Assembly (NCBI RefSeq): GCF_003663825.1
Contig: NZ_RCCC01000001.1
Location: forward strand, 4,534,501-4,598,500
Source of the DNA: Acidovorax sp. 106
GTDB taxonomy: Bacteria; Pseudomonadota; Gammaproteobacteria; Burkholderiales; Burkholderiaceae_C
DNA: 64,000 bases
Reading direction: 5' to 3'
Part shown: positions 16,377-54,378 of the stretch, piece by piece
Position numbering within the stretch: the stretch's first letter is position 1
Layout: each line of letters begins with the position of its first letter
Program-made: the position numbers and the translations under genes
Notes under the pieces: model-generated
Databases searched by the model: none
Told to the model about the DNA's origin: nothing
What the model saw: only the letters and a program-made list of their open reading frames with translations

Positions 16377-17315
16377 ATGACGCAGCTTTTGAACGGTATT
16401 GCCCCCCTGTCCCACCTTGGCGTGATTCGCGTAGCAGGCGAAGACGCCACCAAATTTCTCCAAGGCCAGCTCACACAAGACTTTGCGCTGCTGGACATGC
16501 AGCACGCCCGGCTGGCCGCATTCCTCTCGGCCAAGGGCCGCATGCAGGCCAGCTTCATTGGATTCAAGCGCAGCGACACCGAAGTGCTGCTGATTTGCAG
16601 CCAAGACCTGCTGGCCCCCACGCTCAAGCGCTTGTCGATGTTTGTGCTGCGCGCCAAGGCCAAGCTCAGCGACGCCTCTGCCGACTTTGCGCTGTATGGC
16701 CTGGCTGGAGATACTATTAATTCGATAGCTGGCAGCGCTTATCCCGCTTGGTCCAAGGCCGATTTCGATCAAAACACCCTCGTTCACCTCTACCCCGCAG
16801 CGGGCCAGCCACGCGCGTTGTGGATCGCGCCCCAGGGCAGCGCCGCCCCGCAAGGCCCCTTGCTGGATGCCTCCGTCTGGCTGTGGAGCGAAGTGCAAAG
16901 TGGCGTGGCCACGCTGACCGCGCCGCTGGTCGATGCCTTTGTGCCGCAGATGCTCAACTACGAGTCCATTGGCGGGGTGAACTTCAAAAAGGGCTGCTAC
17001 CCCGGACAAGAGGTGGTGGCCCGCAGCCAGTTCCGTGGCACGCTCAAGCGCCGCACCTACCTGGCCCACGCCGCAAGCGGCTTCGCAGTGGGCTGCGAAG
17101 TGTTTGCTGCCAACGACCCGGAGCAGCCCTGCGGCACTGTGGTGCAAGTGGCGCCCAGCCCCGAGGGCGACGGCGGGGTGGATGCGCTGGTGTCGCTGCA
17201 GATTGCGGCCACCGAACACGCCTTGCACGTTGTGCCAGTGGATCCAACGGGTGCGGCCGATGGCATTGCGCTACAACTGCTGCCCCTGCCCTACCCGTTG
17301 CTCGACGATATTTGA
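16377..17315 (+). CDS. ygfZ: Folate-binding Fe-S repair protein YgfZ
   Basis: 312 residues of the glycine-cleavage T-protein fold. The family signature KGCYPGQE is at 205-212 (VNFKKGCYPGQEVVARSQFRG). YgfZ uses tetrahydrofolate to help mature or protect certain iron-sulfur enzymes such as MiaB. Residues 112-124 (DTINSIAGSAYPA) are encoded by a copy of the dispersed double-hairpin repeat, an in-frame insertion that leaves the rest intact. The ATG at 16377 is chosen where similarity begins. An AGGAGG stands about 19 bases upstream, too far to be ideal; a GTG at 16347 would precede it. Confidence 0.93.
   Translation: MTQLLNGIAPLSHLGVIRVAGEDATKFLQGQLTQDFALLDMQHARLAAFLSAKGRMQASFIGFKRSDTEVLLICSQDLLAPTLKRLSMFVLRAKAKLSDASADFALYGLAGDTINSIAGSAYPAWSKADFDQNTLVHLYPAAGQPRALWIAPQGSAAPQGPLLDASVWLWSEVQSGVATLTAPLVDAFVPQMLNYESIGGVNFKKGCYPGQEVVARSQFRGTLKRRTYLAHAASGFAVGCEVFAANDPEQPCGTVVQVAPSPEGDGGVDALVSLQIAATEHALHVVPVDPTGAADGIALQLLPLPYPLLDDI
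16711..16747 (+). repeat. Double-hairpin repeat copy 1, inside ygfZ
   Basis: Reads ACTATTAATTCGATAGCT then GGCAGCGCTTATCCCGC. It matches the first hairpin and the left half of the second hairpin of the repeat family seen at 24717, 30277, 35098, 48566, 51015 and 54332. It is read in the gene's frame as TINSIAGSAYP. Confidence 0.7.
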
Positions 17316-17376
17316 GCGCTAAAGTGGAGCAGTCAGGCGGCTGGCACATATGCCGCCCCGCAGCACTCCCTCCAGC

Positions 17377-18234
17377 CTAAAAAACCCGCGCCATCAGCAC
17401 ATGGGCAATGCCTGCCTCCTGGCAGGGCTCGCCCGCCACGGCAAAACCCGCACGCTGGTAAAAACCCTGGGCACTGCACTGCGCATGCAACTGCACCTGT
17501 TGGTCGCCACGCGCACGGGCGGCATCGATCAAGGTGTTGAGCAGCACGCGGCCCCATTGGGCGCCACGCACAGATCGATCGACCGCCATGCGGCCAATGC
17601 GCCCCACGCCCGGGGCCTGCTGCAACAGGCGCCCGGTGGCCACGGGCTGGCCCAGGCGGTTGTACAGCACGGCATGGCGTGCGCTGGCGTCCAGCGCATC
17701 GGCCTCCACATCGGCGGCAATGCCTTGCTCTTTCACAAACACCGCTGTGCGCAGGCGGCCCGCATCGCGGCCCAGGGCATTCCAGTCGCCGGTGCGGGCC
17801 TCCACCATGTCCGCGCCTGCTTCAAAACCTTCGAGCATGGCCCGCAGCGCAGGTGGCACCGGGGTGGACGTCTGCGTGGAGGGGTCGGCAAACACATACA
17901 CCAGCTCGCCACTCACCAGCAGCTTGTCGCCACTGAAGATGCCCGCTTCAAACAGGCTGGAGGAGTTACCAATGCGGGCGCAGCGCAGGCCCACCTCCAG
18001 GGTGTCGTCCAGCCGCGCCGAGGCGTGGTACTCCAGCGTGGCTTTTTTCACGTACATCTCGCCGCCCAGCGTCTGCATGCTGGCCTCGTAAGGCAGCGCC
18101 AAGGCACGCCAATAGTCCGACATGGCGGTGTCGATGTACATGAGGTAGTGGGCGTTGAACACGATTTTCTGCATGTCCACCTCGGCCCAGCGCACCCTCA
18201 GGCGGTGCACACAACGGAAGTTCTGGCGTTGCAT
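17377..18234 (-). CDS. Fused YbgC-type acyl-CoA thioesterase and GNAT acetyltransferase
   Basis: 285 residues in one frame. Residues 1-140 are a hotdog thioesterase: WAEVDMQKIVFNAHYLMYIDTA, with the catalytic-type Asp20, then LEVGLRCARIGNSS. Residues ~145-285 are an acetyltransferase of the ElaA/GNAT type: LRTAVFVKEQGI, the acetyl-CoA loop VDRSVRGAQWGRVLL, and FYQRAGFAVAGEP. The first would hydrolyse acyl-CoA thioesters, the second acetylate an unknown amine. Both domains look intact. The ATG is five bases after the esterase stop, so the pair forms an operon. Substrates are unknown. Confidence 0.88.
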   Translation of the reverse strand: MQRQNFRCVHRLRVRWAEVDMQKIVFNAHYLMYIDTAMSDYWRALALPYEASMQTLGGEMYVKKATLEYHASARLDDTLEVGLRCARIGNSSSLFEAGIFSGDKLLVSGELVYVFADPSTQTSTPVPPALRAMLEGFEAGADMVEARTGDWNALGRDAGRLRTAVFVKEQGIAADVEADALDASARHAVLYNRLGQPVATGRLLQQAPGVGRIGRMAVDRSVRGAQWGRVLLNTLIDAARARGDQQVQLHAQCSAQGFYQRAGFAVAGEPCQEAGIAHVLMARVF

Positions 18235-18239
18235 CAGGC

Positions 18240-19208
18240 TCACTCCATGGCAAAGGCTTGTCGCAGCGCCAGGGCTGCATCGGCGTGGGCTTTCAGTGCC
18301 TCTGGCACGGCCCGCCCCATCTTGATGAATTCGTGCGTCACACCCCGGTAGATTTCCAGGTCCACAGCCACACCGCTGGCGCGCAGCTTGTCGGCGTAGT
18401 CCACGCCCTCGTCCACCAGCGGGTCGCACTCGGCCAGCCCGATCCAGGCCGGGGCCACGCCTTCCACATCGGGTGCATGCAAGGGGGCAAAGCGCCAGTC
18501 CTCGCGCTCGGCGCGGGTTTGCACATAGTGGCCAAAAAACCAGCTGATAGCGGGCTCCTCCAGCACCAGACCACGGGCAAACGTGGCGTGAGAAGGCGTG
18601 TCTTGGTGCGCAGCACAGCCGGGGTAAAACAGCAGTTGCAGTGCCAGCGGCAACCCTGCATCGCGGGCATAAATGGCATTGACGGCGGCCAGCGTGCCGC
18701 CTGCGCTGTCGCCGCCCACCGCCAACCGCGCCGGGTCAGCGCCCAGCGTGGCCGCATGCTGGGCCAGCCAGGCCAGGGCGTCCCAGGCATCGTTGGACGC
18801 AGTGGGAAACCGGTGCTCTGGCGCCAGCCGGTAATCCAGCGACACCACCATGGCCCCAGAGAGGCGGGCCAGCTCGCGGCACAGCACATCGTGCGTGGCA
18901 ATGCTGCCAATGGTGAAGCCACCGCCGTGGGTGTACAGCAGCAAGGGCAGCGCACTGCCCCCAGCCGCTACCGGCGCATACAGGCGCGCAGGCAAGCGGT
19001 AACCGTCACGCGCCGGAATGTGAAAGTCCTCCACACGGGGCAGCGCCGCCTTGGCCACCTCCAACACGCCTGCACCTGACTCATAGGCTTTGCGCGCCTC
19101 CTCGGGCGTGCGGGTGTGCAGCGGCGGGTGGCCCGCACGGGCCATGCCCTGCAGCACACCGCGCATCTGCGGGGTCAGGCGGGTGTGGTGAATGTGCAAA
19201 TCGGTCAA
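18240..19208 (-). CDS. Alpha/beta-hydrolase, hormone-sensitive lipase type (Aes-like esterase)
   Basis: 322 residues. The oxyanion motif HGGG is at 94-97 (THGGGFTIGS), the nucleophile Ser168 in GGDSAGG, the acid in AECDPLVDEG, and the His in VTHEF. Such enzymes cleave short-chain carboxyl esters in the cytoplasm. The start is a TTG supported by an AGGAG nine bases upstream; the first ATG is at codon 15, inside the conserved N-terminal region. It overlaps nothing, but runs directly into the thioesterase-GNAT gene. Confidence 0.9.
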   Translation of the reverse strand: MTDLHIHHTRLTPQMRGVLQGMARAGHPPLHTRTPEEARKAYESGAGVLEVAKAALPRVEDFHIPARDGYRLPARLYAPVAAGGSALPLLLYTHGGGFTIGSIATHDVLCRELARLSGAMVVSLDYRLAPEHRFPTASNDAWDALAWLAQHAATLGADPARLAVGGDSAGGTLAAVNAIYARDAGLPLALQLLFYPGCAAHQDTPSHATFARGLVLEEPAISWFFGHYVQTRAEREDWRFAPLHAPDVEGVAPAWIGLAECDPLVDEGVDYADKLRASGVAVDLEIYRGVTHEFIKMGRAVPEALKAHADAALALRQAFAME

Positions 19209-19263
19209 AACGCAAAGCTCCTGTCGGCAATACCTGGGATGGGGGCTGGGGAAGGCCTCGGGC

Positions 19264-20133
19264 TTATTTGAAAGTCACGCGCACAGGTGCAGCACCTGGC
19301 AGGCCATCAAAGGTGGCCGTGACGGACAAGCCCGCCTTGGGCGGCAACAGCGGCGAAAACGAGCCCAGGCTGATCAGGTCACCCGGCTGCATCGCCAACC
19401 CCTCTTGCGCCAGGGCGCCCGCCAGCCAGACGACGGCGTTGAGGGGGTGCTCCAGAATATCGCTGCCTTTGCCACCTCCCAGCCGGGCGCCTGCGGCATC
19501 GGTCAGGCTGACCTGCATGTCGGCCAAGGCTTGCAGCAGCGCATAGCGCTCGGCCCGGTACACCGGCACCGGCAGCGGCGCACCCGCCACGCCCAGGCGC
19601 GCTCCCACATTGATGGCGCTGACGCCCGCGCCATTGAGCTTGGGCGGAGCCTGCACCAGCAGGTCGGGCAGCTCGATGAACGGAATCACCTGGTCGATGG
19701 CCTCCAGCACTTGCATGGGGGTTTTGGCCAAGTTGATGTCAGCGCTTTTTACGCGCACCAGCATGTCGGCCTCAAACAGCGGGCGGGCGCCAAAAGTGGC
19801 ATCCACGGCAGCGCCATTGGCCAGCACCATGCCCTCGTACAGCTTGCCCCACACCGGCTTGTCGGTGTTGAAGCGCTTTTGCACCGCAGGGTTGGTCAGC
19901 CCCGCCTTGTAGCCCACCACCTTGCCCAAGCGCTGGGCCAGCAGGGCATTGACCTTGGCGCGGGTGCAGGCGCCGTCCGCATCTGACATGCCCTCCACAT
20001 TGGCGGCCGGAGTTTTCGCCACATAGCTGGCGACCAGCTCGGCGGCTTGCGCGTCGCTCAGGCATTGGGCTTGGGCGCTTGTCGCGCAGGCGACGGCCAC
20101 CAGGGCCGCCATCAGGGTTTGCTTCGTGTTCAT
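19264..20133 (-). CDS. 2-keto-4-pentenoate hydratase-like protein with signal peptide
   Basis: 289 residues. Residues 1-22 (MNTKQTLMAALVAVACATSAQA) are a Sec signal. The mature chain follows the MhpD/fumarylacetoacetase-like fold: VVGYKAGLTNPAVQKRF, GKLYEGMVLANG, FEADMLVRVK, VIPFIELPDLL, NAVVWLAGALAQEGL, GDLISLGSF. The Glu-Asp metal ligands in FEADMLVRV fit the family. These hydratases act in the cytoplasm on catechol meta-cleavage products, so export is unusual. An AGGAGA ribosome site fixes the start. It is 55 bases upstream of the esterase and may share its transcript. Confidence 0.85.
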   Translation of the reverse strand: MNTKQTLMAALVAVACATSAQAQCLSDAQAAELVASYVAKTPAANVEGMSDADGACTRAKVNALLAQRLGKVVGYKAGLTNPAVQKRFNTDKPVWGKLYEGMVLANGAAVDATFGARPLFEADMLVRVKSADINLAKTPMQVLEAIDQVIPFIELPDLLVQAPPKLNGAGVSAINVGARLGVAGAPLPVPVYRAERYALLQALADMQVSLTDAAGARLGGGKGSDILEHPLNAVVWLAGALAQEGLAMQPGDLISLGSFSPLLPPKAGLSVTATFDGLPGAAPVRVTFK

Positions 20134-20246
20134 CTGCGTCTCCTGCTTCTAAAGTGGTGCTCCAAGAATCGGTTCAGATGACCGGTTCAAAGAGTCGGCG
20201 GGCTATCGTAATCGCTGGCGTCCTTATTCACACACGCTCACACACC

Positions 20247-21383
20247 ATGGCTTTCATCAACTACGTGACCCAGATCCAGTTCGAGTTTGGCGCAGTGAAG
20301 CTGCTGCACCAGGAGTGCCTGCGCGTGGGCATCACCCGCCCCTTGATCGTGACCGACCCCGGCGTGAAAGCCGCTGGCGTGCTGCAAAAGACGCTGGACG
20401 CCCTGCCCGACTTGCCGGTTGCCGTGTTTGACCAAACCCCCGCCAACCCCACCGAGGCCGCCGTGCGCGCGGCCGTGCAGGTCTACCAGGCCCAGGGTTG
20501 CGATGGCCTGATTGCCGTGGGCGGTGGCTCGGCCATCGACTGCGCCAAGGGCATTGCCATTGCCGCCACCCACGAAGGCCCCCTCACCTACTACGCCACG
20601 ATCGAGGGTGGCTCGCCCCGCATCAGCGAGCGCACGGCGCCCGTCATTGCCGTGCCCACCACCAGCGGCACCGGCAGCGAGGTGGCGCGCGGCGCCATCA
20701 TCATCGTGGACGACCACCGCAAACTCGGCTTTCACTCGTGGAGCCTGGTGCCCAAGGCCGCCATTTGCGACCCGGAGCTGACCCTGGGCCTGCCCCCCAT
20801 GCTCACGGCCGCCACGGGCATGGATGCGATTGCGCACTGCATGGAGACCTTCATGTCAGCGGCATTTAATCCGCCTGCCGACGGCATTGCGCTCGATGGG
20901 CTGCAGCGCGGCTGGGCCCACATTGAGCAGGCCACCCGCAACGGCGCAGACCGGCAAGCGCGCCTGAACATGATGAGCGCCAGCATGCAAGGCGCCATGG
21001 CCTTTCAAAAAGGCCTGGGCTGCGTGCACAGCCTGAGCCACAGCCTGGGCGGCGTAAACCCGCGCCTGCACCACGGCACGCTCAATGCCATGTTCTTGCC
21101 CGCCGTGATTCGCTTCAACGCCACCTGTGCATCGGTGCAGGCAGAGCGTCGGCTCGAACGCATGGCACACGCCATGGGCCTGACCTCTGCGGGCGACGTG
21201 GCCCCCGCCATTCAAGACATGAACGCCCGCCTGGGCCTACCCACGGGCCTGGCGGCCATGGGGGTCACGCCCGAAGTGTTTGACGATGTGATCCAAGGTG
21301 CCCTGGCCGACCATTGCCACAAGACCAATCCGCGCATTGCCACGCCCGAGGAATACCGCGAGATGCTGGCCCAGAGCCTTTAG
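20247..21383 (+). CDS. Iron-containing alcohol dehydrogenase
   Basis: 378 residues. The NAD-binding loop GGGSAIDCAKG is at 92-102 and PTTSGTGSEVA at 138-147. Metal ligands are Asp193 and His197 (GMDAIAHCMETF), a His of HSLSHSLGG (261/265) and one of HHGTLN (275/276). It reduces aldehydes or oxidises alcohols; the substrate cannot be told. The ATG was chosen because similarity begins at FEFGAVKLL. It diverges from the hydratase-like gene across ~110 bases. Confidence 0.92.
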   Translation: MAFINYVTQIQFEFGAVKLLHQECLRVGITRPLIVTDPGVKAAGVLQKTLDALPDLPVAVFDQTPANPTEAAVRAAVQVYQAQGCDGLIAVGGGSAIDCAKGIAIAATHEGPLTYYATIEGGSPRISERTAPVIAVPTTSGTGSEVARGAIIIVDDHRKLGFHSWSLVPKAAICDPELTLGLPPMLTAATGMDAIAHCMETFMSAAFNPPADGIALDGLQRGWAHIEQATRNGADRQARLNMMSASMQGAMAFQKGLGCVHSLSHSLGGVNPRLHHGTLNAMFLPAVIRFNATCASVQAERRLERMAHAMGLTSAGDVAPAIQDMNARLGLPTGLAAMGVTPEVFDDVIQGALADHCHKTNPRIATPEEYREMLAQSL

Positions 21384-21504
21384 GCGCCTGCGATAGGCGT
21401 CGCCGGCGCCTTCTCTTGGGCGCAGGCCATCGCCGGGCGGCACCGTGCGCCTTTACACTCACGCACCGTTTTGACCGCTGGGCCCAGCCCGCAGAACGTC
21501 GCCC

Positions 21505-24291: not shown

Positions 24292-24366
24292 AAAGACCTT
24301 GAACGGTTTCTGGGCCCACTGCGCACCGGCACTTTCACCAGCGCGGCCACCAACGCCCTCACAACG

Positions 24367-25572
24367 TCACAACGGCTGCACCGCCCCCAGGTCAGGCCGT
24401 TCCAGCCATTGGGCCAGCTCATCGGCCAGTTGTTGCGCGGCTGCGGTGGCGGTCAGCCAGGCTTTGGCGCGGGCCGCCGTGTCGTGGCCGTAGTGCATAA
24501 AGTCCTGGCGGTCCGGCAGCTTGGCGTTGGGCAAGGTCTTCACCCATTCTGGGCGGGGCGACAGCACCACCATGGTGTCTAGCGCGGCGGTGCTGCGGTG
24601 GCGCCAGCGCAGACCCTTGTCCAGCCAGCCCGGCACCACCTGGTGCTGAAAGTGCGGGTACAGCACCAGGCCCGCCCCTTGGTCTGATGCCGCCACAACC
24701 TTCTTTGAATGAAATGGGCCGCTAGCGCTTTCTGAATCAGCGCTAGCAGCTATCTTTTCAATAGCATCCGAACCACTGCCTTGGTGCGTTTTGTAGGCCA
24801 GGTGCATGTGGTAGTCGGTCAAGCCGCCATCCCAGTAAGCCCCGGGCGGGGCGCCCGCGATGTGGTGCACCGCCTGCAGCACAAACGGAATGGAGCAGCT
24901 GGCCTGCAAGGCATCCATGAAGTTGGCGTGCGTCAGCCGCACCTGCCGGGTGCGAAAGTCTGCCGTGCCAAAAGGAAGCGTTGGCATGGCCGCCCCGCCA
25001 GGCGCCCCATCTTGCGAGGACGAAAAAACCACCCGCTCCAGCCAGGCGCCCAGGGCCTTGCGGTGCACGGCATTGCTCATGAAGGCACCCAGGTAGCCCA
25101 GCGGCGTGGCCACTGGGTGCTCGCGCCGCAGCAGGTGGCGCCCGCGCGCGGCGATCAGGTGCAGGCGGTAGCGGGGGTGCTGCAGCACCTCGTCCACGCG
25201 CCCGGCGTAAAAAGCTTGCAGGCTCTGCCCAAAACGCTCGCTGACATGCGCGGCCGGTGGGCGCTTTTTGCCAGGGGGCACTTCGTAGTGCTGGTGCACG
25301 TAGGCGTCTTCCAATTGCAGCAAGGCGGCCACGGGGTCGTTCAGGCAGGCCGTGGCCATGCGCCACGCGCCAATCGAGGCACCCACCAGATGCACCGGCT
25401 GCTGCGACTGCGTCAGCCAATGCCCAAAGATAAAACGGTCCAGCGGTCCCAGAATCAGCCCCTTGGGGCCACCCGCTGCGGCAGGCACCACCCCCACGTC
25501 GCGTGGCTGCAGGCCCTGCTGGGCCAGGTGCTCCAGGGCGCGCGGCCCGGCATGGATGCTCAATGCTTTCAT
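24367..25572 (-). CDS. Patatin-like phospholipase
   Basis: 401 residues. The serine nucleophile is Ser66 in GASIGAW, the glycine-rich oxyanion loop is AAAGGPKGL (31-39), and the Asp of the dyad is in WDGGLTDYH (248). Patatins hydrolyse acyl chains from lipids. No signal peptide, so cytoplasmic or secreted by another route. Residues ~269-285 (DAIEKIAASADSESASG) are encoded by a copy of the double-hairpin repeat, followed by an odd low-similarity segment to ~297, while the flanking sequence looks normal. Stands alone. Confidence 0.88.
   Translation of the reverse strand: MKALSIHAGPRALEHLAQQGLQPRDVGVVPAAAGGPKGLILGPLDRFIFGHWLTQSQQPVHLVGASIGAWRMATACLNDPVAALLQLEDAYVHQHYEVPPGKKRPPAAHVSERFGQSLQAFYAGRVDEVLQHPRYRLHLIAARGRHLLRREHPVATPLGYLGAFMSNAVHRKALGAWLERVVFSSSQDGAPGGAAMPTLPFGTADFRTRQVRLTHANFMDALQASCSIPFVLQAVHHIAGAPPGAYWDGGLTDYHMHLAYKTHQGSGSDAIEKIAASADSESASGPFHSKKVVAASDQGAGLVLYPHFQHQVVPGWLDKGLRWRHRSTAALDTMVVLSPRPEWVKTLPNAKLPDRQDFMHYGHDTAARAKAWLTATAAAQQLADELAQWLERPDLGAVQPL
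24717..24768 (-). repeat. Double-hairpin repeat copy 2, inside the patatin gene
   Basis: On the minus strand it reads TGCTATTGAAAAGATAGCT, then GCTAGCGCTGATTCAGAAAG, then CGCTAGCGGCC. Both hairpins are present. The gene reads it in the same frame as the copy in ygfZ. Confidence 0.85.
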
Positions 25573-25671
25573 GGCGCTGATTGTCGCAGCGCACGCCGCG
25601 CTGACGGCGGGCCAGAAGCAACCGAAAAACTCAGTGAAGCGGTTCTGGCGAGATGCGTTTAGCCAGCCGCT

Positions 25672-26499: not shown

Positions 26500-26583
26500 G
26501 GGGTGGGGGGGCGCCTCGGTGGTGGTTGCGGCGATTATGGCCTTGCCACCCGCATTCCACCGCCGAAACACCCCACTGTGCTT

Positions 26584-29162: not shown

Positions 29163-30266
29163 ATGCAAGAAGACCTGTTTGGCACACCAGCCGTGCCCAC
29201 GCCCACCAACCGCCAGGCCAGCGATGAGCAGCCCGGCGCAGCCACCACCCGCCCCACACCAAGGGCCAAGGGACTGGGCGTGCGTCCGGTGGCAGTAGAC
29301 GAGACCTTGCGCACGCTGGCGGGCGCCCTGCCCCAGCGGCTGCGCTTGGGCACCTCGTCGTGGACCTACCCCGCCTGGGCCGGGCTGGTGTGGGATGCGG
29401 AGTACGCTGAAACGCAGCTGTCCAAACAAGGGCTGGCCGCCTATGCCGCCCACCCGCTGCTGCGCACCGTAAGCCTGGACCGCAACTTCTACCGCCCGCT
29501 CACCGTCAGCCAGTACCAGCGCTATGCCGAGCAGGTACCGGCGGACTTTCGCTTTGTCGTCAAGGCGCCCAGCCTGGTCACCGACGCACTGGTGCGCACC
29601 GAAGATGGCCGGGGCCGCGAGCCCAACCCGGCGTTTCTGGACCCCGCCCTGGCCTGCTCCGAGTTTGTAGAGCCTGCCCTGGCCGGGCTGGGCGACAAGC
29701 TGGGCGCGCTGGTGTTCCAGCTCAGCCCCCTGCCCATGGCGTGGCTGGACCGCATGCCCCTGCTGCTAGGCAAGCTGCGGGATTTGCTGCACGCGCTGCC
29801 AGCGCTCAAGCCCCAGGCCAGCGACGGCGTGATCGCCGTGGAGGTGCGAGACCCAGAGTGGCTGACCCCTGAATTTGCCGCCGTGCTGCGCGATGCCGGT
29901 GCCACCTACTGCCTGGGCCTGCACCCCAAGCTGCCACCGCTGGCACAGCAATTGCCGGTGCTGCGTGCCCTGTGGCCCACGCCACTGGTGTGCCGCTGGA
30001 ACCTGAATGCATTGCACGGCCCCTATGGCTATGAAGACGCCCAGCGGCGATACGCACCTTACGACCGGTTGCACGACCTGGACCCGGACACCCACGCGGC
30101 GCTGGCCCAGGTGATCGCAGGCATCACGGCCGCAGGGCAGAACGCCTACGTCACCATCAGCAACCATGCCGAGGGCTGTGCGCCCTTGACCGTGCAGCGG
30201 CTGGCCGAGCAAGTGCGGACATTGCCCCCACTTGCGGCCAAGAGCGCACCGCCTGCTGCTGACTGA
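29163..30266 (+). CDS. YecE-like DUF72 protein
   Basis: 367 residues. DUF72 motifs: LRLGTSSWTYPAWAGLVW, VSLDRNFYRPLTVSQYQRYA, FRFVVKAPSLVTD, LGALVFQLSPLP, and VEVRDPEWLTPEF. The fold is a TIM barrel, but the family has no firm biochemical role. The first ~55 residues are a Pro/Thr-rich extension not typical of YecE. A copy of the double-hairpin repeat lies just after its stop. Confidence 0.88.
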   Translation: MQEDLFGTPAVPTPTNRQASDEQPGAATTRPTPRAKGLGVRPVAVDETLRTLAGALPQRLRLGTSSWTYPAWAGLVWDAEYAETQLSKQGLAAYAAHPLLRTVSLDRNFYRPLTVSQYQRYAEQVPADFRFVVKAPSLVTDALVRTEDGRGREPNPAFLDPALACSEFVEPALAGLGDKLGALVFQLSPLPMAWLDRMPLLLGKLRDLLHALPALKPQASDGVIAVEVRDPEWLTPEFAAVLRDAGATYCLGLHPKLPPLAQQLPVLRALWPTPLVCRWNLNALHGPYGYEDAQRRYAPYDRLHDLDPDTHAALAQVIAGITAAGQNAYVTISNHAEGCAPLTVQRLAEQVRTLPPLAAKSAPPAAD

Positions 30267-30276
30267 GAGCCTTTTT

Positions 30277-30329
30277 GGCTTCTAGCGCTTTATGAATAAG
30301 CGCTATAAGCTATCAATTCAATAGCAAAA
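30277..30329 (-). repeat. Double-hairpin repeat copy 3, between convergent genes
   Basis: Read on the minus strand: TTTTGCTATTGAATTGATAG, CTTATAGCGCTTATTCATAA, AGCGCTAGAAGCC. Hairpin one pairs GCTAT with ATAGC; hairpin two pairs AGCGCTTAT with ATAAAGCGCT. It lies between the YecE-like gene and the chemoreceptor gene and could act as a two-way barrier. Confidence 0.9.
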
Positions 30330-43221: not shown

Positions 43222-43225
43222 GCCC

Positions 43226-44005: not shown

Positions 44006-44033
44006 GCGCCCTATCCCCACCGTGACACCATTC

Positions 44034-44932: not shown

Positions 44933-44986
44933 GCCCCACCACTCCTCTTGCACGCAGCCCCCGCAATGCCTGGGCTGCAGCAGCTA

Positions 44987-45167
44987 GGAGCCTGTCGGGC
45001 TTGGAAATCGTCGGCTGCAAATCGACCGCAGCGGTCCATTTTTCACCGCCTTTTTGCCCCATAGCTCGGCTATGGGGCTGCAAATTCGGCAAAAACTGTC
45101 CTCGCTGGGGCCGATTTTGGCGAAACCGTTGGTTTTCGCTATCGACGCTCCAAGTCCGACAGGCTCC
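44987..45167. repeat. 181-bp MITE-like palindromic element A
   Basis: The ends are 19-base inverted repeats differing at one position: GGAGCCTGTCGGGCTTGGA on the left and the complement of TCCAAGTCCGACAGGCTCC on the right. The centre has a perfect hairpin, GCCCCATAG and CTATGGGGC at 45056-45078. No coding capacity of its own. It fills most of the 363-base gap between the Crp-type gene and the kinase gene. A shortened relative lies at 51764-51839. Confidence 0.8.
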
Positions 45168-45295
45168 TGGGCCGTGCGCCACATTGGCGCGCACAGCCAC
45201 CCACAAACACCCCGGCAACAGCCGCCCCAGCGCGCAGCAAGCACAGCCCTGCGCAGGCGCAGCCATGCCCAAACCCATTCCATCCCTCATCCCCC

Positions 45296-46381: not shown

Positions 46382-46428
46382 CCCCACACCCCACAGAACA
46401 ACACCCCCGATTTTTCACGGAGAACCCC

Positions 46429-47703: not shown

Positions 47704-47755
47704 TGCAGCACGCTGGCGCCGAGCACTCTCCGGCGCACAACGGATAGCCCACAAC

Positions 47756-47789
47756 AAGCCCATGGCCCGCAAAGGCCGTGGGCTTTTTT
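47756..47789 (+). terminator. Terminator after the acyl-CoA dehydrogenase gene
   Basis: AAGCCCATGGCC (47756-47767) pairs with GGCCGTGGGCTT (47774-47785) around CGCAAA, followed by TTTTTT. Confidence 0.88.
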
Positions 47790-47899
47790 ATGGTCGGCAC
47801 TTTCGTCAGGCGCGGCAAAATCACGGCACTGAGCCTCTTCGCCCGCCCCCGCCTGACCCTGACAGCCCTGCCTGAACCTGCCAGCCACCACCAGACACC

Positions 47900-48601
47900 G
47901 TGACCACCGCTGACCGCACCACCCCCAGCCCTGCCCACCCTGCCCAACTCACCCGCCGCCAATGGGCCTGCTGGGCCGCGGGTGCCATGGCATGGGCGGC
48001 TCCTGGCGCCTGGGCCAATGCAGCGGTGGGCGCAGCAGGAGAGGATGGCAGTGGCGAATGGCAGGCCTCAGCCACCGCACGGCAGCTGCTGCGCTGGGTG
48101 GCCGCCACAGCAGACAACCAGGGCATGCCCTTTGTAGTGATCGACAAGCCTGAGGCCTGCGCGCATGTGTTTTCAGGCCGGGCGCAGTGGCTGGGCAGCG
48201 CGCCCGTGCTGCTGGGGCTGGCGGCAGGCGACCGCAGCGTGCCCGGCATTGGGCAGCGCCCCGTGGCCCAGGTGCGCCCGCACGAGCGCACCACGCCCGC
48301 AGGCCGGTTTGTGACCGAGCCCGGCCAAAACCTGCAGGGCGAAGACATTGTGTGGATTGACTACGACGCGGCTGTATCGCTGCACCGCGTGCGCAGTGCC
48401 ACGGCCATCGAGCGGCGCCTGCAGCGCCTGGCCAGCCCGCGTGCGCGGGACCGGCGCATCAGCTACGGCTGCATCAACGCGCCCGATGCGTTCTACAGCC
48501 AGCACATCGCCCCCTACTTGGGGCAGGTGCCGGGCGTGGCCTATGTGCTGCCCGACACCGAAGCATTTGCTACGTTTTTTATAGCTGCTAGCGCTTATTA
48601 A
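47900..48601 (+). CDS. Exported L,D-transpeptidase-like protein
   Basis: 233 residues from a GTG. A twin-arginine-like signal (LTRRQWACWAAGAM) ends around AWANA. The C-terminal half resembles YkuD-type L,D-transpeptidases at the active site: RRISYGCINAPDAFY, with Cys191. The usual preceding His-Gly segment is not obvious, so activity is uncertain. Such enzymes cross-link peptidoglycan or attach lipoproteins. Its last twelve residues (EAFATFFIAASAY region) and the TAA stop come from a copy of the double-hairpin repeat. Confidence 0.75.
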   Translation: MTTADRTTPSPAHPAQLTRRQWACWAAGAMAWAAPGAWANAAVGAAGEDGSGEWQASATARQLLRWVAATADNQGMPFVVIDKPEACAHVFSGRAQWLGSAPVLLGLAAGDRSVPGIGQRPVAQVRPHERTTPAGRFVTEPGQNLQGEDIVWIDYDAAVSLHRVRSATAIERRLQRLASPRARDRRISYGCINAPDAFYSQHIAPYLGQVPGVAYVLPDTEAFATFFIAASAY

Positions 48602-48618
48602 ATAAGCGCTAGCAGGCT
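48566..48618 (+). repeat. Double-hairpin repeat copy 5, at the 3' end of the transpeptidase gene
   Basis: Reads TTTGCTACGTTTTTTATAGC, TGCTAGCGCTTATTAAATAA, GCGCTAGCAGGC. The second hairpin CTAGCGCTTATT with AATAAGCGCTAG is perfect. The transpeptidase reading frame ends inside it. Confidence 0.92.
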
Positions 48619-48655
48619 ATTTTTCATAGATTTTGTACATGCCTGAGGTCCCGCC

Positions 48656-48726
48656 CCGTTCGCCCTGAGCCTGTCGAAGGGCCTTTCAAAGGAGCGCCAT
48701 GGCTTCGACAAGCTCAGCCCGAACGG
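48656..48726. repeat. REP-like palindrome
   Basis: CCGTTCGCCCTGAGCCTGTC (left arm from 48656) faces GACAAGCTCAGCCCGAACGG (right arm ending 48726). The spacer is about 20 bases. The motif of TTCG, AAG and CTGAGC is common in high-GC proteobacterial intergenic palindromes. Confidence 0.85.
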
Positions 48727-48772
48727 CTGGGGCAGGTGTCAGACTATTTGGCAAAAAAGCCTCCGCACCGCC

Positions 48773-50878
48773 TCAGAACGCCACCTTCAACCCGACCGTG
48801 ATATTGCGCCCCATCAGCGGCGCAGCGGTCTTGATGAACGAGGTGTGGGCATAGGCCAGGCGGTCGGTCAGGTTAGTGCCCTTGACGTACAGCTGCCAGG
48901 GCGAGCCATTGGCCAGCTTGCCGTTGTAGGCGGCGCCCAGGTTCAGCATGCCATAGCCGGGGGTGGCGGTTTCAAACGCGGTCACGCGGCTTTGGCGGGC
49001 CACCTGCACCCATTCCACCTGGCCTTCCCAGGCCGCCCAGTTGGCGTCGAGCCGCAAACCGGCACGGGTGGCCGGAATGCGTGGCAGGTTGCCGCCGTCG
49101 TCGAGCTTGGCGCGCACGGTGTCACCAAAGAAGGTGATGCCCAGGTTGCGCGTCAGGAGCTGGCGCACCTGGCCTTCAATGCCGGTGAAGGTGGCGTCGG
49201 CCTGGCTGTATTGCAGCAACTGCAGGCCATCGAGCGCATCGAGCGTGCGGCCATAGATGTAGTTGTCGATCTTGTTGTGGAACACGCTCACGCCAAAGGT
49301 GGTGTCGCCACTGGTCTTCTTCAGGCTCACATCGATGTTTTGCGAGGTTTCGGAGCGCAGGCTGGAATCACCGCGCTCGTAGGTGCTGGTGGCCATGTGC
49401 AGGCCCCGCGCATACAGCTCTTCGGCAGACGGCGCGCGGCTGGCGCGTGTGAACGAGCTGCCCACCTGGTAGCCGGGCATGAACTTCCACACCGCACCCA
49501 CCGATGCCGAGGTGCCGTTGTGGCTGCGCTCGATGCCCGTGGTCTGCGCCTCGGCTGTCTGGCGGTCGTGGCGCAGTGCACCTTCAAAGCGCCAGTCGCC
49601 CAGGCGGTATTCCTCCAGCATGAACAGGCCGGTCTTGCGCGTCACGGTGGGCTCGACGTAAGCCTCTTCGCCTTCGGCGCTGAACTTGCGCTGCGAGGTC
49701 TGCACACCCACCAGGCCCTTGAAGCCGGCGATGGGCTCGTGCTGCAGCTCAATGCGCGTGTCGTAGGCCTTATTTTTGAAGGTGGTGCTGATGGCACCGT
49801 CTTCGACCTCGTCGTGCACATAGTCGGTCACGCCAGCGCGCAGGCGCAGGGCCGACACGCCCGCGAACGGGTTGCGCAGTTCGCCGCGCACATCAAAGCG
49901 CTCGCTGCGCAGGTCCACCACTGGCACGTCGGCGGGGTCGTGCACCTCGGCCGGGCCGGTGGGGGCCTCGCACGCCAGCCGGTTGCCATCGGCTCCGCAA
50001 TCTTCAAAGCTGTGGTTGTGCCCCGGCAGGCCGTACTTGGCGGTCTGGCGGGTGTAGGCCGCGCCCAGGTAGCCCTGCTCGCCCACCCACGACAGGCCCA
50101 CGCTGCCCGTGTCGGTGCGGTTGAAGCTGCCCTGCACCTTGTTGCCCCCCGCCCAGCCCTTGCCTACGCGGTAGTCATCGGCATCGCGGGCCACGCCCTC
50201 CACATGCACGGCCAGGTTGCCAGCGCCGCCCGTCAGCGACACAGCCCCCGCCCCTTCGCGCGCGCCGGTGTTGGCGCGCAGCTCGGCGCTGCCTTCGTAG
50301 CCCTTTTGTGGAATGGCGGTGGGGATCTTGCCGTCCAGCACGTTGACCACGCCGCCGACTGCACCCGCGCCATACACCAGGGCCGATGGGCCGCGCAGCA
50401 CTTCGATCTGCGTGGCCAGCATGGGCTCGGACACCACGGCGTGGTCAGGGCTGATGGTGGAGGCGTCGTGCAGCTCGGCACCGTCGCTGAGCACGCGCAC
50501 ACGCGGGCCGTCCATGCCGCGAATGATGGGGCGGCTGGCACCCGCGCCAAAGTGACTGCTGGTAATGCCGGGCTCGCTGTTGAGCGTCTCGCCCAGCGTG
50601 GCCTCGCGGCGGCGCACCAGCTCGTCACCTTCGAGCACCGTCACCGGCGTGGTCATTTCGTTGGCGCCCAGTTGCAGGCCGCTGGCAGATACGGTAACGG
50701 ACGGCAGGCTGGCTTCGGCCGCAGCAGCGGGCGCCACGGCCTGGGCCTGGGCCTGGGCCTGGGCCTGGGCCTGGGCCTGGGCCTGGGCCAGCCCGGTGCC
50801 AGCCAGGGCCAACATGGCAACGGCCAGGGCCACAGGGCGCAGGGCCAGGCGATGGGGGGCAAGTGTGGAGTGAATCAT
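48773..50878 (-). CDS. ZnuD-like TonB-dependent outer-membrane receptor
   Basis: 701 residues. A signal peptide runs to an Ala-Gln repeat tract (about residues 24-44), then the plug domain (MTTPVTVLEGDELVRRREA, SRPIIRGMDGPRVRVLSDG) and a barrel ending in aromatic VGLKVAF. A loop with GHNHSFEDCGADGNRLACE pairs histidines with two cysteines, as in zinc receptors of the ZnuD type. It would import a metal, most likely zinc, using TonB. The start ATG fits the signal. It is last in the metal locus, 358 bases from the next gene, so it probably has its own promoter. Confidence 0.88.
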   Translation of the reverse strand: MIHSTLAPHRLALRPVALAVAMLALAGTGLAQAQAQAQAQAQAQAQAVAPAAAAEASLPSVTVSASGLQLGANEMTTPVTVLEGDELVRRREATLGETLNSEPGITSSHFGAGASRPIIRGMDGPRVRVLSDGAELHDASTISPDHAVVSEPMLATQIEVLRGPSALVYGAGAVGGVVNVLDGKIPTAIPQKGYEGSAELRANTGAREGAGAVSLTGGAGNLAVHVEGVARDADDYRVGKGWAGGNKVQGSFNRTDTGSVGLSWVGEQGYLGAAYTRQTAKYGLPGHNHSFEDCGADGNRLACEAPTGPAEVHDPADVPVVDLRSERFDVRGELRNPFAGVSALRLRAGVTDYVHDEVEDGAISTTFKNKAYDTRIELQHEPIAGFKGLVGVQTSQRKFSAEGEEAYVEPTVTRKTGLFMLEEYRLGDWRFEGALRHDRQTAEAQTTGIERSHNGTSASVGAVWKFMPGYQVGSSFTRASRAPSAEELYARGLHMATSTYERGDSSLRSETSQNIDVSLKKTSGDTTFGVSVFHNKIDNYIYGRTLDALDGLQLLQYSQADATFTGIEGQVRQLLTRNLGITFFGDTVRAKLDDGGNLPRIPATRAGLRLDANWAAWEGQVEWVQVARQSRVTAFETATPGYGMLNLGAAYNGKLANGSPWQLYVKGTNLTDRLAYAHTSFIKTAAPLMGRNITVGLKVAF
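50738..50788 (-). repeat. Hexanucleotide tandem repeat in the TonB receptor signal region
   Basis: Eight uninterrupted copies of GGCCTG (plus strand) plus a partial ninth, encoding alternating Ala-Gln just after the hydrophobic core. Gain or loss of one unit keeps the frame and changes two residues. Confidence 0.95.
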
Positions 50879-51236
50879 GAGGAAACCTTGGGAATCAGAA
50901 AAATCGGACGCAGCCACCCCGCAGCACGCACAGCGCAGCACACGTAACACACAGCGCGCCATGGCAGACAGGCACAGGCCAGTCCGCTCTGCGGGATATA
51001 GAACAAAATGCACGCCAGCGCCTACCAATCAAGCGCAAGCAGCTATCAAAAAAAGAGCATTTAACCCAAAGCGAAGCCGCCACGCAGGGCGCAGCACGGG
51101 ATGGGAAGCAACAGGCCAGAGGGAATGTGCGGAGCGAACGCGCACAACAGAAGCCACCCGCGCACTGGCAGCCCTAGGCCACCGGGTCAGATCGCAACAG
51201 TCGGCGGCTCAAGCGCGCCACCGGGGCCTGCGTATG
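50879..51236. other. 358-base gap upstream of the TonB receptor
   Basis: It contains repeat copy 6 and otherwise no gene I can support. A TATATA-like stretch near 50996-51002 is a possible -10 element for the receptor on the minus strand, without a convincing -35. I looked for a second copy of the Zur-type palindrome and did not find one. Confidence 0.4.
51015..51059 (-). repeat. Double-hairpin repeat copy 6
   Basis: On the minus strand: CTCTTTTTTTGATAGCT, GCTTGCGCTTGATTGGTAGG, CGCTGG. The first hairpin is degraded, the second recognisable. Confidence 0.65.
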
Positions 51237-51728
51237 TCAAGCCCGCAGGGCTGCAGGCGGTGCGCGGGCCTGGAACAGCGCCCGGTGCCGCGCGAACGCA
51301 TGCTGCGTCCAGCCCACCGGGGCGGAGTGGGTGCCATGGCTGGCTGGCACGCCCCATGCGAGGGCGAGCAGCACGTCGGCCAGGGCCAGTTGGTCCAGCA
51401 GCAGGCAGTCTGCCCCGCTGGCGTGGGTGGGCACCAGAGCCGCCAAGGCCTTGGATGCCACGGGCGCGGGTAGGCCCTGCGCACTGGCATGGGCGTGCGC
51501 CTGGGAGGTTGTACCAACCGCAGGTGCCACCTTGCCCACCGGCACAGTGAGATGGGCGGTGAGGTGGACGGTGGAGTGCAAGGCCTGGTGCACCCGGCCC
51601 AGGGCAGGTACCAGCACCAGGGCCAACAACAACCCGGCCAGCCAAGCTGCGTTCCAGGCGCGCACCCCGGCCCGCGTGCGCGGTGGGGTGCGCGCAGGTG
51701 GGCGGTGGTGCAACAGGGACTTGGACAT
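51237..51728 (-). CDS. Unknown exported or membrane protein in the metal locus
   Basis: 163 residues, ATG start. A hydrophobic segment near residues 26-44 (AWLAGLLLALVLVPALG) is a signal or anchor after an Arg/Pro-rich N-terminus. The mature part has scattered histidines (HQALHSTVHLTAHLTV, QAHAHAS) and one Cys. No family was recognised. Its place between the DUF3299-like gene and the ZnuD-like receptor suggests a metal-handling or stabilising role; the histidines are compatible but do not prove it. Confidence 0.6.
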   Translation of the reverse strand: MSKSLLHHRPPARTPPRTRAGVRAWNAAWLAGLLLALVLVPALGRVHQALHSTVHLTAHLTVPVGKVAPAVGTTSQAHAHASAQGLPAPVASKALAALVPTHASGADCLLLDQLALADVLLALAWGVPASHGTHSAPVGWTQHAFARHRALFQARAPPAALRA

Positions 51729-51763
51729 GGGCAAGGGCGAAATCGGCAGCGGATTGAGGAGAC

Positions 51764-51839
51764 TATCGGACTTGGAAATCGTCGGCTACAAATGGACCGC
51801 AGCGGTCTATTTTCGCTGTAGACGCTCCCAGTCGGACTG
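51764..51839. repeat. Short derivative of MITE-like element A
   Basis: Shares GACTTGGAAATCGTCGGCT, GACCGCAGCGGTC and GACGCTCC with the 181-bp element at 44987, but the central ~100 bases are missing. The ends remain partly complementary (TCGGACT with AGTCGGA-type ends). It sits upstream of the unknown exported gene. Confidence 0.75.
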
Positions 51840-51920
51840 CCTGCTGAGTCGGCAAACTCAAAAAACAGACAGCATCAAAACAGTGTGGGTAGGGGCAGTG
51901 CGTGCACAGGCCCCCCGCCC

Positions 51921-52562
51921 TCACTTCACGGGCTCCGCCTCGACCATGCGGTAGAACAGCCCATAGGGGTCGTTGGACAGCACGTTGAATTTACCTTCCA
52001 CTACCACGGGCTCCAGCGAATATCGCACAGGTGTCTTGGCCTTGACTTCAACCATGCTCTCGGGCCCGCCCGGGATGCAGAACGAGCAAGTCAACGGCAC
52101 AGAGGTGAGCAAAAAGTGCTTTTGCGTGGGCTTGGCGTCCATGGGCACCATGAAGCCCTGGATGCGCTGCACCGTCTGGTGCATGGCCTGCTGCTGGGCG
52201 TTGAAGACAGGCAGCACGGCGGTCTTGGTGGTGTTTTTCTTCAGGTCACTCAACACGGACCAGGGCACTACATCGCCCCGCACGGGCAGCGGTGCAATCG
52301 GGCTATTGGGGCTGTGGTAGCCCGGCCCCGAGCCCGCCACCGCTGGCTGCCCGTTGGCGCCTGCTGGCAAAGGCGAGCTGAGCACGGACGCGCCCACTGC
52401 ACCGGGGGCTTGCGCCTGCGCCGCCCCCGGCAACACCCCGCCCAGCAGCACACCCGCCGCCACCAGCCAGGCCAGCGCACAACCAGGGCTATGCGCATCC
52501 ATGCGGTTGAGGGCGCCCGTGGGGACAACAGTGCGGGAAGTGCGGGAAGTTCGGCGGACCAT
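51921..52562 (-). CDS. DUF3299-like exported protein
   Basis: 213 residues from MVRRTSR; an ATG 20 codons later (MDAHSPG) would give a cleaner signal peptide ending AAQAQ. The mature part has WSVLSDL, IQGFMVPMD, and PLTCSFCIPGGPESMVEVK, the pattern I associate with DUF3299. In other proteobacteria such genes lie next to zinc-regulated ABC transporters, which fits here. The CSFC cysteines may bind metal. Exact function is unknown. Confidence 0.75.
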   Translation of the reverse strand: MVRRTSRTSRTVVPTGALNRMDAHSPGCALAWLVAAGVLLGGVLPGAAQAQAPGAVGASVLSSPLPAGANGQPAVAGSGPGYHSPNSPIAPLPVRGDVVPWSVLSDLKKNTTKTAVLPVFNAQQQAMHQTVQRIQGFMVPMDAKPTQKHFLLTSVPLTCSFCIPGGPESMVEVKAKTPVRYSLEPVVVEGKFNVLSNDPYGLFYRMVEAEPVK

Positions 52563-52621
52563 GGGCAGGGTTCTTTCAATCAACGCAAAACCGAAACGGT
52601 GCGATGCACATCGGGCTGCTA

Positions 52622-52785
52622 GGGATGTCTTGCATAACCCTCGCGAGTCGGTGGTAGTGCGGATCGGGATAGGCCGCAAGGCGTCTTTTCGCAGCCAATA
52701 GCCGGACTATTGGCAAGAAAAGCAACGCAGCGGACTGCCCGAGGCCGCGCTATCACGGACCGCAGGGAGTTATGCAGGACATCCC
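52622..52785. repeat. 164-bp MITE-like palindromic element B
   Basis: Ends are inverted repeats: GGGATGTCTTGCATAACCC on the left, and the complement of GAGTTATGCAGGACATCCC on the right. The centre carries a perfect hairpin GCCAATAG and CTATTGGC (52694-52714). It lies between the small Cys gene and the DUF3299-like gene and ends seven bases from the former's stop codon. Confidence 0.8.
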
Positions 52786-52791
52786 AAACCA

Positions 52792-53043
52792 TCAGTGCGC
52801 GTGCTTCATACCGCAGTATTTTCCGATAGCCAGGTTTTTACACGCCGCTTGCAGGTCTTTCATGCACGGGGCTTCGCCTTTACCAGCCTCCAGGCATTTG
52901 GCAGCAGCCTCGTGCGCTGCGGCCATGGCGCGGTGGCGCTCGATGTCTTCCTTGGTTTCCTTGTCAGAGTGGCCCTGGGCCAAGGCTGCAGCGCTGGCCA
53001 GCAGCAAGGGGGCCAGGCACAAAGCAGTCCACAGTTTTTTCAT
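52792..53043 (-). CDS. Small exported Cys-containing protein
   Basis: 83 residues. Signal peptide MKKLWTALCLAPLLLASAAA ending at LAQ, then a short helical chain with four cysteines (AAKCLEAGKGEAPCMKDLQ, AACKNLAIGKYCGMKHAH) and a His-rich end. An AAAGGAA ribosome site six bases before the ATG is strong. The Cys/His arrangement could bind metal. Same strand as the ABC genes, 69 bases after the permease. Confidence 0.8.
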   Translation of the reverse strand: MKKLWTALCLAPLLLASAAALAQGHSDKETKEDIERHRAMAAAHEAAAKCLEAGKGEAPCMKDLQAACKNLAIGKYCGMKHAH

Positions 53044-53112
53044 GGTGATTCCTTTCAGGTGAGATCGACGGACAACAAAAACACACAAAAATTCCCCAGC
53101 GAAGCGAGCCGC

Positions 53113-54348
53113 TCAAGGCTGCACCAGCAAGTCGGCCACATCGGTACGGTAAGCCTGCATGGCCGGCAACAGTGCTGCCAGCGCGGCCACCAGCCCCGCC
53201 AGCAGGGGCACCCCAGCCTCTTCAGGCAGCCACAGGGCACCGCTGACCGGCAACAGCCCCTGCGCCTGCAGCGTCCAGCCCAGCGCGTGCGCCAGGCCAT
53301 GGCCCAGCAGCAGGCCCAGGGCGCAGGCCAAAGCCGCCAGCCACAGCGCTTCGCACAGCACCAGCCCGGCCACGCGGCCCGGGGGGGCGCCCAGCATGCG
53401 CAGCATGGCCAGGTCAAAGCGGCGCTCGCGCACGGCGTTCCACAGCGCAATGAATACGCTCAGCGCCGCCACAGCCAGCAGCACGCCACCAAAGGCGCGC
53501 AGCACATCGGCCCCCACGCCCAGCAGGCGCAGCAGGCGCGTCACTTCAATGGCCGGTGCCGCAGCCTGCATGGAGGTGTTGGCGTTGATGGCGCGCGGCA
53601 GCGACACGGCGGCCAGCGGCGTGCGGTAGCGCACCAAGGCCACGGTCACTTCGCGCTCTTGCTTCAGGATTTCCAGGTCGTCGGGGTCATCGGCGGTGGC
53701 GGTTTCGTGCACCAGCCACACCGATTCGGTGCTAGTGAGGATGAGCCGATCGAGCACGCAGCCGCAGGGCGCCAGCACGCCGCTGACGCGGTAGGGATGG
53801 TCGCCATGGGCATGCCCACCAGCGCCCAGGCCGTGGGTGCCGATGAAGGTGGCCCCGACCAGCGGTGCACCCGTGTGGCTGGGCGCGACGATGCTGCGTG
53901 CCACGGTGGCGCCCAGCACGGCGTCCATGGGCTGCTGCCACAGCCCGCCCTGGGCCAGCTCGGCGCGGTAGTGGGCGGTGTAGTCGGGCGTGGTGCCCAC
54001 GATGCGAAAGCCCTGGTAGCTGTCGCCCAGGCTCAGCGGTATCACCTGGGACACCAGCGGGTTCTGCGCCAGGTCCTGCACCTCTTGCAGCGGGATGTTG
54101 CCCGTGGGCACGTCGATGTGAAACACCCCTGCCAGGATGAGCTGCAGCGGGCTGCCCTTGGCGCCCACCACGAGGTCAATACCGTTCAGGTCGCGCTCAA
54201 AAGCCTGGTCGAGTTGGGTGGACACCAGCAGCACCAGCGTGATGGCGGCCAGGCCCAGGGTGAGCAGCAACAGGTTGAGCGCCGCAGCCAGCGGCCGCGA
54301 CCACAGGTAGCGCCAAGCCAAAGCGGCCGTCTTTGCTATATTTTTCAT
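53113..54348 (-). CDS. FtsX-type ABC permease with periplasmic His cluster
   Basis: 411 residues. Four membrane helices (about 20-43, 275-300, 320-345, 380-400) around a large periplasmic domain, as in LolC/MacB permeases. That domain includes GTHGLGAGGHAHGDHPYRV with His179, His181 and His184, and CGC at 195-197. Such His clusters are seen in permeases of zinc-regulated ABC systems. The start codon and first residues (MKNIAK) fall within a repeat copy. ATP is hydrolysed by the neighbouring ATPase. Confidence 0.85.
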   Translation of the reverse strand: MKNIAKTAALAWRYLWSRPLAAALNLLLLTLGLAAITLVLLVSTQLDQAFERDLNGIDLVVGAKGSPLQLILAGVFHIDVPTGNIPLQEVQDLAQNPLVSQVIPLSLGDSYQGFRIVGTTPDYTAHYRAELAQGGLWQQPMDAVLGATVARSIVAPSHTGAPLVGATFIGTHGLGAGGHAHGDHPYRVSGVLAPCGCVLDRLILTSTESVWLVHETATADDPDDLEILKQEREVTVALVRYRTPLAAVSLPRAINANTSMQAAAPAIEVTRLLRLLGVGADVLRAFGGVLLAVAALSVFIALWNAVRERRFDLAMLRMLGAPPGRVAGLVLCEALWLAALACALGLLLGHGLAHALGWTLQAQGLLPVSGALWLPEEAGVPLLAGLVAALAALLPAMQAYRTDVADLLVQP

Positions 54349-54378
54349 AGCTTTTACCGCTTATCCAGCGGGCGCTGG
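54332..54378 (+). repeat. Double-hairpin repeat copy 7, across the ATPase/permease junction
   Basis: Plus strand: TTTGCTATATTTTTCATAGC, TTTTACCGCTTATCCAGCGG, GCGCTGG. On the minus strand the ATPase stop (PLDKR then TAA) and the permease ATG (MKNIAK) both lie inside it. Confidence 0.8.

Follow-up and report, generated by a model that had tools for sequence, protein, structure and literature searches.

Why bacteria keep hundreds of repeats of the repetitive extragenic palindromic (REP) type is an open question. DNA uptake sequences in Neisseria and Pasteurellaceae form hundreds of sites in both orientations, with the consensus kept, also in genes. REP sequences and their doublets (REPINs), described with the REP-associated tyrosine transposase (RAYT, or TnpA-REP) in Pseudomonas, E. 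coli and Stenotrophomonas, are short palindromes present in hundreds of copies. Published work deals with the tags of REPs, their presence inside genes and TIRYTs (PMC3733652), with GTAG cleavage and the groups of RAYTs (PMC8266576), a RAYT in Thauera (PMC2817692), REPINs (PMC3116915), the Rickettsia palindromic elements (RPEs; PMC10969869), and a theory of REP persistence in which a very small benefit per copy is expected (PMC8049555). Here, a REP-like repeat was analyzed in a stretch of 64,000 nucleotides from Acidovorax sp. 106 (NZ_RCCC01000001.1, positions 4,534,501 to 4,598,500; the whole stretch is called the window), in the rest of the source genome and in its relatives, and its intergenic copies appeared to be individually constrained.

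The element was about 65 bp long, with two unlike hairpins in its consensus. The layout was TTTGCTAT(7 nt, A/T-rich)ATAGC T GCTAGCGCTTA(5 nt)TAAGCGCTAGC RGCC, followed by an A/T tail of about 15 bases. Stem 1 (GCTAT/ATAGC) had 5 bp closing an A/T-rich loop, stem 2 was a hairpin of up to 11 bp (GCTAGCGCTTA/TAAGCGCTAGC), A/T tracts flanked the core, and most copies were aligned without gaps in a fixed geometry. A preliminary description of the window had named seven copies with two adjacent hairpins, and all seven were recovered in place, each with both hairpins, by a covariance model (21.8 to 78.1 bits) and by a weight matrix (scores 45 to 78, compared to at most -4.6 in 200 kb of Markov-shuffled DNA). 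The covariance model was built from 10 copies, five of them from the window (those at 16711 and 35098 were left out), and the weight matrix drew on 20 training stretches elsewhere in the genome that lay clear of the window; a degenerate eighth copy was also revealed by the latter (Table 1).

The divergence of the copies was determined against G317, a relative at about 93% identity, over a block of 444 kb. In 25 shared intergenic copies, 41 of 722 high-information sites had diverged (5.7%), compared to 157 of 917 low-information sites (17.1%) and 366 of 2899 flanking sites within 80 nt (12.6%) (Fisher 3e-13 and 2e-8, respectively), and divergence was lower at high- than at low-information sites in 22 of the 25 copies. 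When changes were predicted by base from the flank rates, 103 were expected at high-information positions (41 seen) and 127 at low-information positions (157 seen). The same outcome was obtained when the two site classes were taken from 47 copies in other parts of the genome (38/672 versus 160/967), and over 66 sites the Spearman coefficient was -0.67. Under a neutral star model the high/low ratio was 1.00, with 0.62 as the lowest value in 300 runs, whereas 0.33 was observed. Intragenic copies, in which coding constraint is mixed in, gave 18/464 versus 61/592; intergenic copies in a wider set of relatives, where many rows repeat one site from species to species, gave 198/1223 versus 484/1547, with 251/1088 in the near flank. 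These results suggested that purifying selection acts on the consensus bases of the intergenic copies, copy by copy, as shown for one genome pair and supported in others. Gene conversion is an unlikely source of the sameness, because orthologues were far closer than paralogues. This apparent constraint on each copy is the point that the preliminary description had missed.

Positional stability was also found. Against G317, 48 of 73 source-genome copies were shared, 0 faced an empty site and 25 were unresolved; in the opposite direction, 50 of 60 copies were shared, 0 faced an empty site and 10 were unresolved. At conserved junctions compared with two genus members of about 83 to 88% median protein identity, the shared, own-only and other-only copies numbered 3, 1 and 3 for G262 (42 junctions) and 7, 0 and 3 for G303 (60 junctions). 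Recent copying was not seen: none of the sites resolved against G317 was empty, and the closest two of 92 sampled copies were only 77% identical. Decayed copies were few: at threshold 14, scores over 444 kb ran from 18 to 89, and a threshold of 3 added two (6.1 and 3.8) in 244 kb. The junction between thiD and a permease gene was read in 33 of 40 genus genomes; among the first 20, 17 had been picked for alignment through the junction and 3 where the alignment broke, and the next 13 were all broken there. The element was present in 24 of the 33, including 4 of the 13 alignment-broken additions. We judge from these comparisons that the repeat was amplified long ago and that there has since been some turnover of copies in the genus.

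Further copies in the full genome, whose scarcity would have spoken against the preliminary description, were found in number: the core ATAGCTNNNAGCGCT with at most one mismatch gave 306 + 263 matches in the 4.88 Mb genome, compared to 4 + 4 for a reversed-pattern control. The 92 copies came from a 624 kb sample consisting of a 244 kb block around the window and 19 stretches (L022 was without a copy at score 14; L025 was excluded as it overlaps the window block), which corresponds to one copy per 6.8 kb, near the one per about 9 kb estimated from the window. Orientation was balanced (43 + and 41 - in 20 evenly spaced 20-kb stretches at two mismatches). Among the 90 copies assigned to a class of place, two at stretch ends being omitted, 23 lay inside predicted genes, 14 over gene ends and 53 between genes; genes were called by our own codon-based finder and these shares are approximate. 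A replichore bias, as expected for lagging-strand insertion, was considered and rejected, the apparent gap in + copies being a listing artefact and no switch being seen across the 20 stretches.

A short palindrome of high copy number and mainly intergenic placement agrees in this sample with a REP sequence, and the repeat also resembles the REP/REPIN and RAYT system in its two orientations, its long persistence and a RAYT-type gene in nearly every family genome. It differs in several respects. GTAG was found in 0 and CGTC in 1 of 92 copies at the four stem-side positions, which places the repeat outside the tagged REP superfamily (GTAG or its complement occurred anywhere within the copy in 28 of 92). 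Copies were singletons and not inverted doublets: a single neighbour pair closer than 400 bp was found among the 92, in the same orientation, unlike REPINs or bacterial interspersed mosaic elements. The two hairpins within about 65 bp are unlike each other, the copies are diverged, and purifying selection appears to act copy by copy. No inverted ends, as in a miniature inverted-repeat transposable element (MITE) of a DDE insertion sequence, were seen in the consensus. The preliminary description had proposed a mobile or amplified family of REP/MITE type; the amplified, palindromic and genome-wide character in both orientations was borne out, whereas recent mobility and the tagged superfamily were not. 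Neither Acidovorax nor any of the further Comamonadaceae names looked up, a set that varied from paper to paper, was found in PMC3733652, PMC6006769, PMC2817692 or PMC12306157, and no paper describing the repeat was among those listed by full-text searches of the open literature; subscription papers were outside this scope, and it may be in print elsewhere.

At least 50 core matches, forward plus reverse, were detected in 43 of 299 genomes of the GTDB family, and most others were near the control level. Copy number varied widely within genera (371, 20 and 13 in g128). Among 80 named loci, the repeat was densest in Paenacidovorax, Oryzisolibacter, Simplicispira, Alicycliphilus, Polaromonas, Rhodoferax, Acidovorax and Comamonas, and no copies were seen in the few loci of Variovorax (3), Ramlibacter (4), Hydrogenophaga, Caenimonas and Diaphorobacter (1 each). 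Outside the family at most 3 matches per genome were obtained, a weak comparison as the arm spacing of the pattern was wrong (the source genome itself gave only 57).

On balance, we lean slightly towards an old REP-type amplification, probably made by a RAYT, whose copies are now functional chromosomal sites. Hundreds of copies would have been amplified in ancestors of Comamonadaceae, most likely by these genomes' own RAYT-type HUH transposase, acting on single-stranded hairpins. Insertions would have been tolerated mostly between genes, and inside genes where the frame stayed open, as 20-odd extra residues. Within the genus, most copies would have been passed down at the same place, some being lost or gained, and the intergenic ones would be held by purifying selection on consensus bases; it is because of this selection and inheritance in place that the copies may be taken to act as functional sites. 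Our best guess is that the hairpin and A/T-tract sequence serves for protein recognition, with the RAYT itself or else a protein of nucleoid structure or topology as the candidate, and not as an RNA terminator. A tentative extension, to which we give distinctly less weight, is that a large part of the family uses the former REP-type repeat as individually selected sites all over the genome, with a host protein or a domesticated RAYT as reader. Sequence comparison makes selection on single copies visible here, and the many genomes of the family make site-by-site tests possible; if the reading is true, the host benefit of REP sequences would be measurable copy by copy.

The preliminary description had suggested looking for a linked RAYT-type transposase, and a gene of this type is present in the genome. 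A RAYT-type protein (MARLPRLTLPGYPHHVIQRGNNRQ..., HFH motif) was encoded at about 870 kb of the source genome, the sole PF01797 match there (38.1 bits, cut-off 23). In NCBIfam, REP-associated tyrosine transposase (NF047646) was the only family listed, and three proteins scored 68.7 (the source-genome protein), 77.8 and 76.3 bits, all under the curated 80-bit cut-off. RAYT-type homologues (E 1e-10) were detected in 282 of 299 family genomes, mostly with one match each. RAYT presence as a predictor of copy number was rejected, since it was similar in repeat-rich and other genomes.

The surroundings of the gene were read at 40 RAYT loci, 37 of which had a recognisable gene, with a score of 0 or more counted as repeat-like. 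Repeat-like sequence in opposite orientation had its edge within about 25 nt of the RAYT stop codon in 20 of 37 loci and within 15 nt in 14, whereas comparison genes had repeat-like sequence within 15 nt in 6/145 and 15/314 cases; repeat-like sequence in the same orientation was found at 3 of 37 RAYT loci. In repeat-rich genomes, a repeat lay within 250 nt on either side of 19 of 26 RAYT genes versus 25 of 86 other genes (p 8e-5). Many RAYT flanks share GCTAT..AATTTGAT with the repeat, followed by TGTCCC; the five exact matches to this block in 18 genomes were all beside a RAYT gene, and inexact ones occurred elsewhere too. Kinship between the repeat and the RAYT 3' flank is suggestive and not taken as proof, because the flank looks ancestral. 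For G283, a comparison by eye of the lineage-specific RAYT flank with the lineage-specific repeat consensus gave no convincing link.

Two observations concern the RAYT genes themselves. Many had GGGGTCAGATTCCAATTA-type blocks upstream and some had GGAATCTGACCCC downstream, like the long inverted ends of a TIRtron (L038-L057, L188-L207). In the likeness to TIRYT/TIRtron elements (Di Nocera 2013), GGGGTCAGATTCC-type blocks flank a RAYT-like gene in many loci, inverted on the two sides in some; unlike them, such blocks numbered 0 in a 400 kb sample of the source genome, and the repeat studied here is another sequence. The genome of a relative, G015, had 20 PF01797 matches, several of them identical and full-length, along with five pairs of fragments that share one break point, which suggests a multi-copy element of IS200/IS605 type.

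At the thiD junction, stem 2 was examined in alignment A4 (the window plus the first 20 genomes, 21 sequences). Pairing held in 80.5% of cells, and one pair had switched from G-C to C-G; of 500 shuffles, 0 reached its covariation score and 6 its paired share, and a slide of +3 came near the true register (0.149 versus 0.168). The paired positions anticipated by the preliminary description were present in the consensus and covaried between species at this one site examined for it.

Several results weigh against the old amplification with functional copies. A RAYT was found in 41 of 43 genomes with at least 50 core matches and in 241 of 256 others, so copy number was not tracked, and the complete, repeat-rich genomes G256 and G270 (197 and 206 matches) were without a RAYT at E 1e-10. 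In low-copy genomes, 4 of 11 RAYT genes versus 5 of 30 other genes were near repeats, which was not significant (p 0.22). The nearest copy in the source genome was 2.9 kb from the RAYT gene, where the GCTAT part was gone, and the repeat at RAYT genes may be one ancestral insertion inherited by all, in which case the statistics overstate independence. The element was absent from the thiD junction in 9 of 33 genus genomes: in three loci the genes almost touched (7, 19 and 22 bases), five had 510 to 724 bases between them, and one was without thiD in the stretch. At the three junctions with almost touching genes, the flanks were too different for a target duplication or exact ends to be read. Low-information positions evolved faster than the flank (p 8e-4), which makes them an imperfect neutral yardstick. 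As to pairing, at the thiD site two of five covariation measures, pairs changed on both sides and further pair types, were no better than shuffled (415 and 376 of 500), no covariation was found among the 92 paralogous copies of the source genome, and in intergenic copies of G000 versus G317 41 pairs were broken on one side compared to 16 kept through change. We read this as selection acting on sequence, with the stem probably also mattering at some sites.

Among other explanations, ordinary selfish DNA of the REP/REPIN type, slowly replicated by a RAYT, with copies individually neutral and decaying, is doubtful. In its favour, the repeat is palindromic and dispersed, a RAYT gene is widespread in the family, the consensus differs between genera, the thiD junction is empty or rearranged in the nine genomes mentioned, and REPIN theory (PMC8049555) expects a tiny benefit per copy. 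However, consensus positions of inherited intergenic copies evolved about 3 times slower than other positions, and the few decayed copies, the lack of empty sites among those resolved against G317 and the lack of a near-identical pair among the 92 also speak against it.

A chromosomal signal system with a protein reader (uptake, segregation or nucleoid sites), never a transposon, is unlikely. It would account for hundreds of orientation-neutral sites, for the constraint on each copy and their positional stability, for the A/T tracts beside the core, and for a consensus nearly absent from plasmid (2 of 72,556) and phage (0 of 50,697) records at E 0.001. DNA uptake sequences are alike in number, in orientation, in the kept consensus and in their presence in genes, but the element here is much longer and hairpin-forming. 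The length with two hairpins, the thiD junction without the element in three genomes, the sequence kinship with the RAYT 3' end, and the inserted appearance of segments in two proteins all speak against such an origin. The least probable reading is that of transcription terminators, or of stem-loops at mRNA 3' ends, which selection has spread to the ends of genes: stem 2 covaried at one convergent site (thiD) and 11 of 90 copies overlapped only a gene 3' end, but the consensus has no T-run directly after the stem, divergent gaps (9 copies in 15.9 kb) were nearly as dense as tandem (41 in 60.1 kb) and convergent ones (17 in 24.0 kb), a quarter of copies lay inside genes, and paralogues were without covariation.

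The contexts of the window copies were as given in the preliminary description (intergenic or 3'-end positions, ygfZ, a patatin gene and a gene junction), but its wording that two genes were interrupted was too strong, as the reading frames of ygfZ and the patatin-like gene both remain open across the copy. In keeping with its proposal that the element reshapes proteins, the copies inside genes are read in frame; by eye, the frame in which the element is read is the same in ygfZ and the patatin-like gene. Pfam domains were found in all 10 host genes scanned of the 23, mutL, ileS, xseA, kdtA, SpoU and methyltransferase types being among them, and tmk was likewise assigned by Pfam (names are our reading of Pfam families). 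In ygfZ, for which 36 of 80 loci were compared, 13 of these other loci had repeat DNA scoring above 0 at the equivalent place in the gene and came from Simplicispira, Acidovorax, Paenacidovorax, Extensimonas, Rhodoferax, Curvibacter, Polaromonas and unplaced metagenome-assembled genomes; the remaining 23 scored below 0, with the protein segment still alignable and short deletions in some. In the patatin-like protein, a peptide like AIENIAASAYPESAGGQKDLK lay between conserved blocks in most of 120 homologues and was absent in 9 (by eye). The extra in-frame patatin residues, absent from some homologues, and the ygfZ segment look like insertions. RPEs and the intragenic REPs of Di Nocera 2013 are alike in lying in frame in unrelated, often housekeeping, genes and adding a peptide; unlike them, most copies here are outside genes, the CGTC tag is lacking, the sequence belongs to another family and the copy in ygfZ can be recognised across several genera. 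These in-frame copies, one of them traceable over several genera, indicate a way in which housekeeping proteins can gain segments from such repeats.

Table 1. Copies of the repeat in the window (bits, covariance model; score, weight matrix)
Coordinates	Strand	Context	Score or bits	Remarks
14910..14975	-	thymidylate kinase gene (14636-15313 -)	score 31.9	eighth, degenerate copy; Pfam Thymidylate_kin; matching copy in G317
16710..16775	+	inside ygfZ (16377-17315 +)	score 45.2; 21.8 bits	in-frame reading TINSIAGSAYPAWSKADFDQ
24703..24768	-	inside patatin-like gene (24367-25572 -)	78.1 bits	in-frame reading AIEKIAASADSESASG
30263..30328	-	between convergent genes DUF72 / chemoreceptor	68.7 bits	
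35097..35162	+	between convergent permease gene and thiD	46.0 bits	
48566..48631	+	over 3' end of open reading frame 47900-48601 (+)	74.5 bits	
50996..51061	-	gap upstream of TonB-dependent receptor gene (48773-50878 -), between two - genes	67.5 bits	
54332..54397	+	over MacB-type ABC operon junction: ABC ATPase gene (54354-55070 -) / FtsX/MacB permease gene (53113-54348 -)	66.1 bits	

With Rfam, nothing but one tRNA was found in the window. In the consensus of G283 (20 copies) and G270 (9 copies), stem 2 had a recurrent single mismatch, AGCGCTTG with AAGGGCT, which recalls the bulge described for E. coli REPs (PMC8266576). The window also contains an unrelated direct repeat of 57 nt, 89% identical, at 44986-45042 and 51757-51813.

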